A stretch of DNA of 47,114 nt. Origin: Opitutus sp. GAS368. Its GTDB lineage: Bacteria; Verrucomicrobiota; Verrucomicrobiia; Opitutales; Opitutaceae. The notes below the pieces were generated by a model that saw only the letters and a program-made list of their open reading frames with translations, was not told where the DNA came from and ran no database searches. The DNA is taken from positions 1 through 47,114 of the forward strand of contig CAMCHO010000012.1 in the NCBI GenBank assembly GCA_945874455.1. Reading direction: 5' to 3'. Shown in pieces: positions 40,953-46,799 of the stretch (position 1 is its first letter; the number at the start of each line of letters is the position of its first letter). The position numbers and the translations under genes were made by a program.

Positions 40953-41678
40953 TCAGGTGGCGATGCGCTGACGGCGCCGGTGCCAGACGGTGCCGACGAG
41001 CGCGAGCGCGCCGAAGATCGCGGCGTAGGTGGAGGGCTCGGGGATGGCGGAGACGGAGCCGCCAAGCGATAGCCCGTCGACGCTGGTGGAAGAGATAAAC
41101 CCCCATCCCCCCGTGGCTGTTTGTCCACTCGCGAAGAACCGCATGGTGATGGATGTATTTGCATCAACATTCTGTAACGCGCTAACACTCGTGAGATCTA
41201 CCGTTGGTGAAGTGGACGGAGTCCCGATTAGGGTGAAACTGCTGCCGATCAAGTTGAAATTTGTCCCATCGGTGCTGTAAGCCCACTGCATCGTAACCCC
41301 CGGCGTAGCTGCATAGGAAGACGTTCCAGCAAAATTCGAATCTATCGACGAGAGTGAGAACGTATATCCGGCGGAGGGAGAGACAACGAATTGGAAATAG
41401 TCGGTGTTCGCCGTCGAAATACCGTTGTTCATAAAGCCTGTGGTGCGAAACGAATTGTTGGCTCCGCTCGCCAATGCAGTTGATCCCCGGGTAAGTGTAT
41501 TAAAACCTGAGGTATCAATATTTGATGAGACCGTTGTCGCCGCGTAGGTCACGGGAGGTGAACCGGAGAGGATGCCGGAAAAATTCCAAGCTGCGATCTG
41601 AGCGTTACAAGATGAGGAAACCGTTACCAGAAAGGTAAACGCTCCGATCATGTTTTTGAATTTTTTGGATCTACTCAT
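40953..41678 (-). CDS. PEP-CTERM sorting-domain surface protein
   Basis: 241-residue exported protein. The N-terminus MSRSKKFKNMIGAFTFLVTV is a signal peptide. The C-terminal 31 residues are the PEP-CTERM signal: IPEPSTYAAIFGALALVGTV then WHRRRQRIAT, with P-E-P at about 213-215, a hydrophobic stretch and a basic tail, so an exosortase is expected to process it. The ectodomain is beta-rich with IAAWNFSG near its start, TDYFQFVVSPSAGYTFSLSS in the middle and VDGLSLGG at the end. This layout recurs twice in the divergent nuclease gene. The ATG at 41676-41678 is used. Function is not known; proteins of this class are often extracellular or EPS-associated. Confidence 0.88.
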   Translation of the reverse strand: MSRSKKFKNMIGAFTFLVTVSSSCNAQIAAWNFSGILSGSPPVTYAATTVSSNIDTSGFNTLTRGSTALASGANNSFRTTGFMNNGISTANTDYFQFVVSPSAGYTFSLSSIDSNFAGTSSYAATPGVTMQWAYSTDGTNFNLIGSSFTLIGTPSTSPTVDLTSVSALQNVDANTSITMRFFASGQTATGGWGFISSTSVDGLSLGGSVSAIPEPSTYAAIFGALALVGTVWHRRRQRIAT

Positions 41679-42104
41679 GATGGAAATTGATGGAGGAGAA
41701 GGAAGGCGGGTGGAAGCGGGCGGGCGGGTGAGCGAAGCGACGAGGCAGGACGTTTAGGCGATTCGGCAGGGCCGCAAGCGGGAACCGGTCGTTTGATGTG
41801 ACAAGTGTGTGTCGAGCAGAAGGCCGGGTGGCCGAGGTGCCATTGCGATGCGAACGGAGGCGCGTAATGGAATTTTGTGGACTGAACGAGGGGAGCGAAC
41901 GGGCACTAATCTGGTCAAGGGTTGGTGCTCGCCGCACCGTCGAAGGACTGCGGTGGAGGCGAGCGTGCGGAAGGTGCTGGGAGCGTGGTGCAGGTGGAGG
42001 CGAAGTGCGGCCGGCAGGAGGGAAAGGCCGGCAGGTTAAATTCTGGTGACGTGGGTTGTTCGGGCGTGCGCGGGGGCCCGACCTGGACAGCGTGGCGAAC
42101 CATC
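41679..42104. other. divergent intergenic region between the PEP-CTERM and nuclease genes
   Basis: 425 bp, G-rich on the + strand. The open frame of the nuclease gene extends upstream to 41922 but without a signal peptide. No palindrome or promoter with confidence was found. The two surface or secreted proteins could share control from here. Confidence 0.45.
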
Positions 42105-45100
42105 ATGACTAAATGTCTTCGATTTTTGCGGCCGCTGTCGGGCGTGTTCGCCGTCCTCCTCGCCGTGTTGGCTGCGTTGCCGGTTCGCGCCACGATCGGG
42201 GTCCCGTTGCAGGCACAGTTGGGCAATCCCAGCGCGGCTACGGCCGATCCGGCGAATCGCACGCGCTACCTGATCCTGCGGGCACAATACGCGATGGACT
42301 ATAACGACACTACGCGGGAGCCCAACTGGGTGGCGTGGAATCTGACGACGGGCGACGTGGGGAGTGCGGGGCGGTCGTCGAGTTTTTTCCCGGATACGAC
42401 GTTGCCGGCGGGCTTCACGGTCGTGGGCGACGGGGACTATTCCGGGTCGGGCTACGACCGCGGTCACATGTGTCCCTCGGGGGACCGCACCGTTTCGCGG
42501 GCTGACAACGATGTCGTTTTCTACATGACGAACATGATCCCGCAGGCACCGGATAACAATCAGGGCGTGTGGAACAATTTTGAGACCTACTGCCGCACGC
42601 TCGCGAGCGCGGGGAACGAGGTTTTGATTGTGACCGGGCCGAGCGGTTTCGGGGGTTCGAAGATTGCGAGTGGCGTGAGTATCGCGGGCTTCACGTGGAA
42701 AATTGTGGTCGTGGTGCCGCTCGGCAGCGGCACGGCGGTGAGCCGCGTGACGGCGGCGACGCGCGTGATCGCGATCAAGGTGCCGAATGTGCAGGGCGTG
42801 CGCAGCAATCCGTGGCAGCAATACGTGACATCGGCGGCGGTGATCGAGGCGGACACGGGCTTTACGTTTTTTACGGCGCTGCCGGCCGGGGTCGCGGCGA
42901 CTCTGCGTGCGGTGGTCGATGGTCAGCCGACGACCGGGGCACCGGTGATCACGAGCCAACCGACGGCGCAGACGGCACCGGTGGGCGGCAACGCGACGTT
43001 TGCCGTGACGGCGACCGGAAATGCGACGCTCACCTACCAATGGGCGAAGGATGATACCGATCTGCCTGGCGAGACCGAGGCGACGTTGAGTCTGACCAAC
43101 GTGCAGTTGGCCGATGCGGGGAACTACAGTGTGACGGTGACGAATTCCGTGGGCTCGGTGACAAGCAGCGCGGTGGCGCTGGTGCTCAGCGGTGTGCCGC
43201 CCACGATCACGATGCCGCCGGTGGCGCGCACGGTGACGGCGGGCAGCGTGGCGACGTTTTCGGTGGTGGCGGGCGGCTCGCCCACGCTCACCTACCAGTG
43301 GCGCAAGACCACGACGGCGCTGACCAACGGCGGGAAAATTTCCGGTGCGACGGGCGCGACGCTCACGGTCACCAACGCGCAGGTGGCGGACGCGAGCAGC
43401 TACGATGTGGTCGTGACCAACGGCAGCGGCTTCGTGACGAGCGGGGCGGTCGGGCTGACGGTGACGACCGCGGCTCCGACGATCGTGACGCCTCCGGTGG
43501 CGCAGAGCGTCACGATCGGAGCGACGGCGACTCTGATGGTGGCAGCGAGAGGCACGGAGCCCCTCAGCTACCAGTGGCGCAAGGGCAGCACGGTGCTGAC
43601 GAATGCCGGAAATATTTCCGGTGCGACGAGTGAGACGCTCGTCATCACGGGAGCGCAGCTCGCCGACGCTGGGAGCTTCGAGGTGATGGTGAGCAACGGA
43701 CAAACGCCCGATGCGACGAGTGCGGCGGCTCTCTTGACGGTGAGCGCGGCACCGCCGACGAGCACGGTGGTCTGGGGTTTTGCGACGGCGACGCCGACGA
43801 GTGGTCTGCCGGGCGATGTCAGTGGCGGCACGGTGACGCAGGGGAGCAACAACGGCACGTCAACGATGCTGGCGGCGACGTCCGCCTCGGGCACTTACAC
43901 AGGAGCGACGGGCGGCAATAATGCGGGGCTCGCGGCGCGCCCGGGGGCGCTGGACAAAACGGCGACGACGGGATCGGCGTATTTCGAATTCCTGCTGACC
44001 CCGGTGGCGGGCAAGGCGCTCACGGTGCAGGCGATTTCGTTTGGCTCGCGCAGCACGAGCACCGGTCCGCAGGCCTACGATATTTTCACGAGCGTGGATA
44101 ATTTTGCGACGCGGGTGGCGACGGGAACGTTGACCAACACGAGCGCGTGGGCGCTGCAAAGTCCGGCGATGACAACGGTGACGGGCGGGATCGGCAGCAC
44201 AGTCACCGTGCGCCTCTTCGGCTACAATGGCACGGGTAACGCCACGGCGAGCACGGCGAATTGGCGGATCGACGATCTTAAAGTCACGGTCGCGACGGCG
44301 ACGCCGGCACCGGTGGCTCCGGCCGTGGCGAGTGTCGGGCCGGTGGCGGGAGCGACGGGGGTGAGCCCCGCGACGCCGATCACGATCACGTTTAACCAGG
44401 CGGTGACCATGACGAGTGGTTGGTTTGCAATCAGCAGCACGAAGAACGGCCCCGCGGCTGCTGCGGTGACCGGCGGACCGGTGGCGTTTACGCTTTCGCC
44501 AGCCGTGAGTTTTGCGGACAACGACGCGGTGACCGTGACCGTCTTTGCGGCGCAGGTGGCCGATCAGGCGACCGGGGCGCTGCGCCCTGGGGCGGACACG
44601 ACGTGGAGCTTTACGACGGTGGCACCGGTGGCACCGAGCATCACGACGCCGCCGGTGGCGCAGGCCGTCGCGGCGGGGGGCACGGCAACGTTGACGGTCG
44701 TGGCGGCGGGCACGGCCCCGATCGGTTATCAATGGCGGAAGAACGGGGTAGCGATCACGGGCAATGGCACGGCGTCAACGGCGACGCTCACGTTGGCCAA
44801 TGTGCAGGCGGCGGAGGCGGGCGACTACGACGTCGTGGTGAGCAACGGCGTGAATCCTGCGGCCACGAGCACGGCAGTGGCGCTGACGGTGACGGCGGCG
44901 GCGCCGACGATCGTGACGCCGCCCATCGCGCAGGCGGTGGCGGTGGGGGCGAACGCGAGCTTCAGCGTCGGGGCGAGCGGCACGGCGCCGCTGACCTACC
45001 AGTGGCGCAAGGGCGCCACGGCGCTGACCGACGGCGGCAGCATCGCGGGCGCGGCGACGGCGAACCTCACGCTGACCGGCGTGACGCTGGCGGACGCGGG

Positions 45101-46799
45101 CAGCTACGATGTAGTCGTGAGCAACGGCGTGGGCACGCCCGCGACGAGCACGGCGGTGGCGCTCACGGTGAGTGCGCCGGCCCAAGCGACCATCGCGTGG
45201 GACTTTGCCACGGCGGCGCCGACCAGCGGATTGCCCACGGAATTTTCCGGCGGCGTGGTCACGGTGGGGAATAACAACGGCACGACGACGCTGCTGGCGA
45301 CGACGTCGGCCTCGGCCGGCTACACCGGCGCCTCGGCGGGCAACAACGCGGGCGCGGCGGCGCGCACGGGCGCACTCAGCACGGCGGCGAGTGGCTCGGC
45401 GTATTTTGAATTTACCGTCACGCCGGCGGCGGGGAAACAAGTGAGCGCGACGAGCCTGAGCTTCGGCTCGCGCAGCACGGGCACCGGGCCGCTGGCCTAC
45501 GCGGTGTATGCGAGCGTGGATAGTTTCGCGGCACCGCTGTCGAGCGGGACCTTGCTGGCAAACAGCAACTGGTTGCTGCAAGCGCCGGTGTTGACGGCGG
45601 TGACGGGTGCGGCGGGCACGGCGGTGACGTTTCGCATTTATGGTTTCAATGGCGCAGGCAACCCGGGCGTGGGCACGGCCAACTGGCGCATCGATGATTT
45701 GAAGCTCGGCGTGAATGTGGGCGGCGGCGGCCCGACGGTGCCGACGATCACGACGCAGCCCGTGGCGCAGACCGTGGCGCCGGGCGCGACGGTGACGTTG
45801 AGCGTCGTGGCGAGCGGCGGCCCGGGCCTGACCTACCAGTGGCGCAGGGGCGCGGTGGCGCTCACCGATGGCGCGGGCGTGGCGGGCGCGACGACGGCGA
45901 CGTTGACGTTGAGCAACGTGCAGGCGGCGCAGGGCGGCACCTACGATGTCGTCGTGAGCCTCAGCGGCAGCGACAGCGTGACGAGTGCGGGCGCGTTGCT
46001 CACCGTGTCGGGTCCGACGGGTGCGCCGGCGATCACCACGGAACCGGTCGCGGCGGCGGCGATGGCGGGCGGAACGGTTACGCTCTCCGTGGCGGCGACG
46101 GGCACGGGGCCGCTCAGCTACCAGTGGAAGAAGGACAATGTCACGGTGGCGGGCGCGACCGGCGCGACGTTCACGTTGAACTCCCTCACGGCCAGTGCGG
46201 GCGCCAGTTACGCGGTGGTGATCACCAACTCCATCGGTGTGGCGACGAGTCGCAGCGTGCCGGTCAACGTGGTCGGGGCGACGCAGAGTGTCGCGGGACC
46301 CGGATATGTTGCAGGCGGCACGGTTTCCCTCGTGAATGTAATCGCCTACAGTGGTCCGCTCGCGGGCTATAGCTGGCAACTCCTCCTGCCGACCGGCTGG
46401 ACCTATGCGAGCAGCACCGGCAACGCGGCCGACACGCCGCCGACGGTGGGCGCGGGCAGTCTCGCCGAGTGGCAGTGGACGACGAATCTCGGGAGCCCGG
46501 CGTTGTTCACCTGCACGCTCAACGTGCCGATGGGCGTGGTCGGCGCGCAGACCGTGAGCGCGATCTTCGTGGGCAAACGGGCGGACGGCACGACGTTCCA
46601 GGTGCTGGTGCAGCCGGACCCGCTGACGATCCACCGCTCGGCGGCGTTTCACCACGCCGACACGAATCAAGACGGCGTGATCGGGCTCTTCGAGCTCACG
46701 CGTCTGATCGAACTCTACAATACCCGCAACGGGACCGTGCGCACGGGCAAGTATCGCCCTCAGAGTAGCACGGAGGATGGATTTGCGCCCGGTCCGTAA
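42105..46799 (+). CDS. secreted DNA/RNA non-specific endonuclease with Ig-like repeats and EF-hand/dockerin-like tail
   Basis: 1,564-residue multidomain protein. ATG 42105 gives the signal peptide MTKCLRFLRPLSGVFAVLLA ending VRA-TIG. Residues ~30-270 are a NUC1-type nuclease with YDRGHMCPSGDR (catalytic H121 of DRGH) and NMIPQAPDNNQGVWNNFE carrying the metal-ligand Asn. Three Ig-like repeats (each with TYQWRK-like cores) span about nt 42943-43745. A ~175-residue module (WGFATATPTSGLPG to WRIDDLKV) is at about 43765-44300. An SbsA-Ig-like domain follows, then two Ig repeats, the module again at about 45183-45717 and two more Ig repeats. A cohesin-like stretch and the tail HADTNQDGVIGLFELTRLIE end it. 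It probably digests extracellular nucleic acid while bound to a surface. Confidence 0.9.
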   Translation: MTKCLRFLRPLSGVFAVLLAVLAALPVRATIGVPLQAQLGNPSAATADPANRTRYLILRAQYAMDYNDTTREPNWVAWNLTTGDVGSAGRSSSFFPDTTLPAGFTVVGDGDYSGSGYDRGHMCPSGDRTVSRADNDVVFYMTNMIPQAPDNNQGVWNNFETYCRTLASAGNEVLIVTGPSGFGGSKIASGVSIAGFTWKIVVVVPLGSGTAVSRVTAATRVIAIKVPNVQGVRSNPWQQYVTSAAVIEADTGFTFFTALPAGVAATLRAVVDGQPTTGAPVITSQPTAQTAPVGGNATFAVTATGNATLTYQWAKDDTDLPGETEATLSLTNVQLADAGNYSVTVTNSVGSVTSSAVALVLSGVPPTITMPPVARTVTAGSVATFSVVAGGSPTLTYQWRKTTTALTNGGKISGATGATLTVTNAQVADASSYDVVVTNGSGFVTSGAVGLTVTTAAPTIVTPPVAQSVTIGATATLMVAARGTEPLSYQWRKGSTVLTNAGNISGATSETLVITGAQLADAGSFEVMVSNGQTPDATSAAALLTVSAAPPTSTVVWGFATATPTSGLPGDVSGGTVTQGSNNGTSTMLAATSASGTYTGATGGNNAGLAARPGALDKTATTGSAYFEFLLTPVAGKALTVQAISFGSRSTSTGPQAYDIFTSVDNFATRVATGTLTNTSAWALQSPAMTTVTGGIGSTVTVRLFGYNGTGNATASTANWRIDDLKVTVATATPAPVAPAVASVGPVAGATGVSPATPITITFNQAVTMTSGWFAISSTKNGPAAAAVTGGPVAFTLSPAVSFADNDAVTVTVFAAQVADQATGALRPGADTTWSFTTVAPVAPSITTPPVAQAVAAGGTATLTVVAAGTAPIGYQWRKNGVAITGNGTASTATLTLANVQAAEAGDYDVVVSNGVNPAATSTAVALTVTAAAPTIVTPPIAQAVAVGANASFSVGASGTAPLTYQWRKGATALTDGGSIAGAATANLTLTGVTLADAGSYDVVVSNGVGTPATSTAVALTVSAPAQATIAWDFATAAPTSGLPTEFSGGVVTVGNNNGTTTLLATTSASAGYTGASAGNNAGAAARTGALSTAASGSAYFEFTVTPAAGKQVSATSLSFGSRSTGTGPLAYAVYASVDSFAAPLSSGTLLANSNWLLQAPVLTAVTGAAGTAVTFRIYGFNGAGNPGVGTANWRIDDLKLGVNVGGGGPTVPTITTQPVAQTVAPGATVTLSVVASGGPGLTYQWRRGAVALTDGAGVAGATTATLTLSNVQAAQGGTYDVVVSLSGSDSVTSAGALLTVSGPTGAPAITTEPVAAAAMAGGTVTLSVAATGTGPLSYQWKKDNVTVAGATGATFTLNSLTASAGASYAVVITNSIGVATSRSVPVNVVGATQSVAGPGYVAGGTVSLVNVIAYSGPLAGYSWQLLLPTGWTYASSTGNAADTPPTVGAGSLAEWQWTTNLGSPALFTCTLNVPMGVVGAQTVSAIFVGKRADGTTFQVLVQPDPLTIHRSAAFHHADTNQDGVIGLFELTRLIELYNTRNGTVRTGKYRPQSSTEDGFAPGP

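Follow-up and report, generated by a model that had tools for sequence, protein, structure and literature searches.

The stretch of DNA analysed here, referred to below as the window, comprises 47,114 nucleotides of contig CAMCHO010000012.1 from Opitutus sp. GAS368. Near the end of the window lie two divergent genes, one for a small protein with a PEP-CTERM sorting signal and one for a large multidomain nuclease, and the two products contain what are best read as remote copies of one module. The features of this locus are as follows.

40953-41678, minus strand: PEP-CTERM protein gene, 241 amino acids; open frame with matches to PF07589 and TIGR02595.
40965-41045, minus strand: PEP-CTERM sorting signal (PEP motif, hydrophobic stretch and basic tail); TIGR02595, 24.7 bits in the genome scan.
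41052-41597, minus strand: ectodomain, amino acids 28-209 (182 residues), probable remote copy of the common module; hhalign 98.4 and an AlphaFold2 model.
41679-42104, no strand: divergent intergenic region of 426 bases, by reading of the sequence.
42105-46799, plus strand: multidomain nuclease, 1564 amino acids, with a NUC domain, seven immunoglobulin (Ig) stretches, Big_5 and two common modules; Pfam scan and translation.
42234-42884, plus strand: NUC catalytic domain (Endonuclease_NS, PF01223, E=2.6e-45), with DRGH at 42456-42467 (amino acid 118).
43770-44294, plus strand: common module, nuclease copy 1, amino acids 556-730; alignment and shuffle test, no Pfam family.
45192-45716, plus strand: common module, nuclease copy 2, amino acids 1030-1204; alignment and shuffle test, predicted jelly roll by AlphaFold2.
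46635-46796, plus strand: C-terminal tail with one EF-hand-like loop and a final TEDGFAPGP; weak EF-hand match, tail by reading.

The smaller protein scored above the cut-offs of both PF07589 (21.9 bits against 20.7) and TIGR02595 (22.4 bits against 16), and its N-terminus, MSRSKKFKNMIGAFTFLVTVSSSCNAQ, is signal-peptide-like by appearance. The genome (5.07 Mb, 95.5% complete) gave one exosortase match (PF09721, E=8.3e-42, above the cut-off) and two PEP-CTERM proteins above the TIGR02595 cut-off, the window protein being one of them. Searches of the same genome returned two NUC genes, three nuclease-type modules and one PEP-CTERM-side protein.

The NUC domain of the larger protein scored 155.2 bits against a PF01223 gathering score of 23. 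The solved structures closest to it are 2o3b (E=1.7e-60) and 1zm8 (E=2.2e-60), both titled 'Nuclease' and both of which we take to be NucA. The DRGH of the window nuclease, presumably the active-site motif of Endonuclease_NS nucleases, aligns with the corresponding stretch of 2o3b. The start at 42105 was inferred from the signal-peptide-like MTKCLRFLRPLSGVFAVLLAVLAALPVRA, and the gene ends 315 bases short of the end of the window, which is also the contig end. The Pfam and NCBIfam scans found no PEP-CTERM signal in the nuclease, and NCBIfam gave no match anywhere in it at E 1. The EF-hand match in the tail (amino acids 1514-1535, E=0.055) is below its cut-off, and the tail is possibly an anchoring or processing signal. 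Among the loci scanned (the window, L082-L178 and L227-L242) no other open frame has the TEDGFAPGP tail.

A preliminary description of this DNA had proposed a module shared by the two proteins from short strings in their translations. All of the strings it quoted are present, with one copy of the module in the ectodomain and two in the nuclease. The ectodomain has WNF (41580-41588), TDYFQFVVSPSAGYTFSLSS (41346-41405), ITMRFFASG (41124-41150) and VDGLSLGG (41058-41081); copy 1 of the nuclease has WGF, SAYFEFLLTPVAGKALTVQA, VTVRLFGYNGTGN and WRIDDLKV, and copy 2 has WDF, SAYFEFTVTPAAGKQVSATS, VTFRIYGFNGAGN and WRIDDLKL. The nuclease copies share about 61% identity with one another, and the ectodomain is 22% and 21% identical to them.

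Direct pairwise tests were insufficient to relate sequences this distant. The score of the ectodomain against copy 2 was matched by none of 500 shuffles and that against copy 1 by 18 of 500, a phmmer search with the ectodomain as query detected neither nuclease copy, and a two-sequence profile of both nuclease copies did not detect the ectodomain. The relationship is clearer with deeper profiles. A 17-module profile scored the ectodomain at 10.8 bits, against 8.1 for the highest of 1000 shuffles; with a 91-module profile built without the window protein, the score was 14.4 bits, against 8.5 for the highest shuffle. In an iterated search begun from the two nuclease copies, PEP-CTERM proteins of relatives entered the profile and the window protein was found in round 2 at E=5e-4; the E-values of later rounds (2e-23 and others) are circular, with the window protein inside the profile, and were not counted. 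Furthermore, PEP-CTERM proteins of related genomes match both the window protein and the nuclease modules and serve as bridging sequences, some of their matches to the window protein including the common PEP-CTERM tail.

Comparison of profiles with hhalign, in which E-values refer to single comparisons and are uncalibrated to a database, gave a probability of 98.4 over 124 columns between a 12-sequence PEP-CTERM-side family and 66 nuclease-type modules. The probability was 98.6 when the window protein and its ortholog (described below) were left out, and these two proteins matched the rest of the PEP-CTERM side at 99.5. As controls, a different module termed type B (described below) reached 13.4 and 0.1, and 30 of 30 column shuffles, five Ig domains taken from the nuclease and a different family of PEP-CTERM ectodomains all fell below 1. 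When the PEP-CTERM side consisted of only the window protein and its ortholog, the probability against the 66 modules was 56.6, over 33 columns. Overall, the likeness between the ectodomain and the nuclease modules is best read as remote homology. A recent duplication of the ectodomain from the nuclease was ruled out, because identity is 21-22% and the ectodomain is no nearer to these copies than to other members of the family.

Structure prediction points to the fold of the module. The AlphaFold2 model of nuclease copy 2, built with 65 other sequences, has a mean predicted local distance difference test score (pLDDT) of 93 and a predicted template modelling score (pTM) of 0.91. Its top VIA-align matches are carbohydrate-binding modules (CBMs) and related jelly rolls, whose Z values span 11.4 to 9.4 across the 50 rows listed, among them 1wky (11.4), 2wys (10.8), TmCBM27 (10.7), meprin (10.7), CBM22 (10.4) and a gingipain adhesin domain (9.7); Foldseek TM-scores for the model are low, at 0.26-0.47 query-normalised over 50 rows. 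Copy 2 is thus confidently predicted to be a CBM-like, galactose-binding-like jelly roll. The ectodomain model, built with nine other sequences, has a pLDDT of 58 and a pTM of 0.61, with a best Z of 8.8 (reelin) and no Foldseek match at E 0.001. The top-50 lists of both models contain 1wky, 2wys, 4xun, 4xup, 3km5, 2xom, 2yc4 and 8a28, and the strand order of the two models is similar. With a mean pLDDT of 58 the structural matches of the ectodomain are weak evidence, and the model is not an independent test because all the aligned sequences except the ortholog are nuclease-type family members by profile. It is consistent with a common fold, short of proof.

The conserved residues bear on whether the two proteins would bind the same ligand. 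Seven residues, G93, R95, W128, R149, W166, D169 and D170, are invariant in all 66 nuclease-type modules. In the joint alignment the PEP-CTERM protein and its ortholog keep R149 and W166, the latter uncertain because the alignment is gapped there, and are without G93, R95, W128, D169 and D170. As five of the seven are lost from the PEP-CTERM copy, a common ligand is not the natural reading.

None of the 66 modules matched any Pfam family at E 0.01, and the 66-module profile had no credible match among PDB sequences (best E=0.15). A scan of genome contigs for the module, from which the best 80 of 117 confirmed stretches were taken, gave 79 loci in Verrucomicrobia (many of them Opitutaceae) and Bacteroidota, with single records elsewhere (one labelled Planctomycetaceae and one Balneolales). 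Among the 80 module-bearing open frames, 25 have a full NUC domain, 7 have a PEP-CTERM signal, none has both and 48 have neither, the nuclease share being biased upwards because the query came from nuclease modules. Pfam and NCBIfam scans of 30 of the 48 frames with neither found TIGR04183 (type IX secretion system, T9SS, sorting) in 17, Por_Secre_tail in 15, Exo_endo_phos in 4, and T9SS_DNase_Rie and ExeM_NucH in one each. Because Verrucomicrobia and Bacteroidota carry the module widely, its sharing by two proteins is no proof of partnership. One carrier, at L115:7146-11243, is another putative nuclease: it matches Exo_endo_phos (38.7 bits against 24.5), has a single copy of the module and lies close to a NUC nuclease and two PEP-CTERM genes.

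The arrangement of the window genes, divergent and 426 bases apart, was compared with that in relatives. Among 250 sampled genomes of the family, one other clear ortholog of the PEP-CTERM protein was found (genome G374, E=6e-109), and 11 further genomes gave weak matches (5e-9 to 5e-4). The clear ortholog, 60% identical to the window protein, lies at locus L162 of a Candidatus Didemnitutus metagenome-assembled genome, where its frame starts 348 bases from the end of the stretch. It again points away from a module-bearing NUC protein, with a second PEP-CTERM gene between them. In addition, the PEP-CTERM tail DNA of the window (40997-41050) is 91% identical over 54 bases to L162:2009-2062, which belongs to a different PEP-CTERM gene in that other genus; this is much higher than the 67% found for the ortholog gene, as though tails had been exchanged or homogenised.

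Adjacency was counted for large NUC genes, defined as open frames of at least 700 amino acids, of which there were 42 in 40 genomes. A PEP-CTERM gene immediately adjoins five of them (the window, G374, G402, G361 and G231), the last four belonging to one genus (g56); five is a minimum, because about ten of the loci are truncated, a contig end lying no more than some 600 bases away on one side or both. The PEP-CTERM counts per genome, at an assumed 1100 bases per gene and uncorrected for clustering of exported-protein genes, give an expectation of 0.21 and P=1.7e-6 for five or more if the cases are independent, or P=0.018 for two or more when the cases are counted as two lineages; several loci were assigned to genomes via equal open-frame length. 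Adding genome G022 (locus L090) gives 6/43 and P=5.7e-8, or P=0.0013 for three lineages. The G022 nuclease was kept outside the main count, as only the last 43 NUC residues are on its contig; they were detected by our own profile (E=8.6e-12) and were found neither by Pfam nor in the genome search for NUC genes. Taken together, the pairing of a PEP-CTERM gene with a nuclease looks non-random. At L227:10321-11091 (G231) the PEP-CTERM protein lies directly upstream of the NUC nuclease, and by eye we take its ectodomain to resemble a lamin-tail domain. In literature searches on PEP-CTERM, exosortase and Opitutaceae nucleases, no title or abstract opening describes this gene pair.

Type B, with the pattern 'YTQNFDTL ... 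DNFSL', is a second module common to a PEP-CTERM protein and its neighbouring NUC nuclease; over it, Pfam and NCBIfam reported only sorting-signal or weak PEP-CTERM models. The type B pairs and a PEP-CTERM slot that differs in ectodomain between two close genomes are listed by locus.

L115:2582-3397 and L115:3401-6529: type B pair.
L128:3144-3938 and L128:4950-8924: type B pair.
L128:3144-3938 (G402) and L162:348-1133 (G374): one PEP-CTERM slot with two different ectodomains.

Around the five nucleases with an adjoining PEP-CTERM gene, nine PEP-CTERM genes were counted at distances of up to about 1 kb, and four of the nine carry a superfamily present in the nuclease concerned: the window module type in the window and G374, and type B in G402 and G361. 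Either type was found in 3 of 40 other PEP-CTERM proteins (two of the window type and one of type B), a comparison set drawn from some 170 such proteins encoded by six genomes of genus g56, with the last 1 kb of each examined; one protein in this set sits 3.7 kb from the G402 nuclease. The difference gives a Fisher P of 0.016 (0.020 for 3/7 against 2/39 with orthologs collapsed, and 0.023 for 4/10 with the contig-cut G022), and it is suggestive only, because the grouping was made with the data already in view. In a tree of type B modules the paired modules do not group together.

The loci of G402 and G374 are 93.7% identical over a compared 2.5 kb, which begins where the divergent PEP-CTERM gene starts, spans the next PEP-CTERM gene and reaches into the nuclease, and 94.5% identical over 163 bases that include the PEP-CTERM tail. 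Across the intervening 604 and 667 bases blastn found no match between them, and the similarity breaks off among the first codons and again where the PEP motif begins. The slot holds the window ectodomain type in G374 and type B in G402, and the nuclease of each genome has one type A and one type B module. At this locus it thus looks as if the whole ectodomain was replaced in one piece. The DNA upstream of the slot was found in 2 of 13 genomes of that genus, G374 and G402, and the difference therefore represents one event. An assembly error was judged an unlikely cause of the difference, because the window shows the pairing of L162 again and, in G402, the copy is inside a 940-kb contig. The locus might be an exchangeable surface-receptor slot, in which upstream region, start and tail are kept while recombination across these conserved ends swaps the whole ectodomain for one of a superfamily that the neighbouring nuclease also carries; surface protein and nuclease would thereby stay matched through mutual or same-matrix binding. 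This reading rests on the one observed G374/G402 difference between flanks of about 94% identity, and we consider it unlikely.

We propose that the two window proteins are separate carriers of a widespread, undescribed jelly-roll (galactose-binding-like, CBM-like) accessory superfamily. The nuclease would be exported and would cut DNA or RNA via its N-terminal NUC domain, with its two modules held out on Ig spacers and keeping the enzyme on a glycan or other polymer of the matrix around the cell. The PEP-CTERM protein would likewise be exported, would be processed by the single detected exosortase, and may expose its diverged module at the same location, whether surface or matrix. Both would most likely act at one site, the extracellular matrix, as matrix-binding components; a bound pair sharing one ligand is the less likely arrangement. 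The analysis shows homology by profile, the predicted fold of the nuclease copy, the NUC domain with DRGH, the sorting signal, an exosortase gene and an excess of adjacency, whereas export, anchoring, ligand and joint function are inferences; we regard the proposal as a whole as probable. Several points weigh against it. The nuclease share among module carriers is inflated by the nuclease-derived query, a CBM-like fold alone is no demonstration of sugar binding, and the ectodomain model is poor (pLDDT 58). Moreover, the ectodomain is no nearer to its neighbour's modules than to other family members, at an identity of only 21-22%, and 37 of the 42 large NUC genes had no adjoining PEP-CTERM gene in view.

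The last two points also speak for coincidence, in which both window proteins would belong to a very common group of exported proteins bearing jelly-roll modules and would lie side by side without functional meaning. The presence of the module at no fewer than 79 loci fits this explanation, as does the fact that four of the five adjacent cases are in genus g56, so that the two-lineage count reaches P=0.018 only. Against it, with two PEP-CTERM proteins in 5.07 Mb the chance that one would adjoin one of the two NUC genes is about 0.002, the clear ortholog shows the same arrangement in another genus, and the adjacency counts exceed expectation both for the five cases, if these are independent, and for three lineages. 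We consider coincidence a possible but lesser explanation. The idea that the likeness is not homology and reflects the shared composition of serine/threonine-rich exported proteins draws on the 18 shuffles that matched the copy 1 score, the two-sequence nuclease profile that misses the PEP-CTERM protein, and the short hhalign match of that protein and its ortholog alone. It is very improbable given probabilities of 98.4 to 99.5 between deeper profiles, the low values of the shuffle, Ig, other-ectodomain and type B controls, and the bridging PEP-CTERM proteins.

The preliminary description had read the shared module as a homologous beta-sandwich and had suggested that the two proteins bind the same ligand, or each other. 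Its fold is supported by the profiles, the confident copy 2 model and the consistent, low-confidence ectodomain model, and the neighbouring pair that it proposed to look for in relatives recurs, the clear ortholog lying near a module-bearing nuclease. Its same-ligand claim is not supported, as five of the seven invariant nuclease-module residues are absent from the PEP-CTERM copy. A single ligand in the matrix or on the surface (for example one exopolysaccharide or extracellular DNA), at which both proteins would meet, is in keeping with one superfamily, one presumed compartment and recurring adjacency, and many of the matched jelly rolls of this fold are glycan-binding modules; set against the residue losses and the 21-22% identity, it is improbable. 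The PEP-CTERM protein could alternatively act as a docking protein at the surface, capturing the nuclease by way of its modules. Nearby ectodomains repeat the superfamily of the neighbouring nuclease more often than ectodomains elsewhere, with the post hoc grouping given above, yet the paired type B modules are ungrouped in the tree and most module-bearing nucleases showed no such neighbour, and we hold a dock to be quite improbable. We therefore prefer separate carriers of one superfamily, co-located in the matrix.

These results outline a large superfamily of accessory domains that occurs on nucleases and on sorted surface proteins of Verrucomicrobia and Bacteroidota; all 66 modules tested lacked a Pfam match. 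They also provide a functional lead for PEP-CTERM proteins, some of which adjoin nucleases and carry the same modules. Should the matched-slot reading hold, it would reveal how bacteria can swap ectodomains without losing compatibility between their surface proteins and the enzymes that act on the matrix.

The window nuclease resembles the NucA/EndoG/Serratia-type endonucleases (PF01223) in its N-terminal catalytic domain and DRGH, with 2o3b and 1zm8 closest, followed by EXOG and EndoG. Unlike them, it adds seven Ig stretches, Big_5 and two undescribed modules predicted to be jelly rolls. The predicted fold of copy 2 is similar to those of CBM27, CBM22, CBM6, CBM35, CBM61, the gingipain cleaved-adhesin domain and MAM domains (Z 11.4-9.4), whereas identity is 7-17% in the rows shown and the modules belong to no Pfam family. 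Haft (2006, PMC1569441) describes PEP-CTERM ectodomains as diverse, with little homology to known proteins. The window protein agrees with the PEP-CTERM/exosortase system presented there in its C-terminal signal above curated cut-offs and in the presence of one exosortase; in contrast, its genome has only two PEP-CTERM proteins above cut-off, and the adjoining nuclease has no PEP-CTERM match. Finally, Bacteroidota and ExeM/NucH extracellular nucleases share the module, as in the Exo_endo_phos protein of L115, but they belong to another catalytic family, and those of Bacteroidota often have T9SS sorting domains instead of PEP-CTERM.

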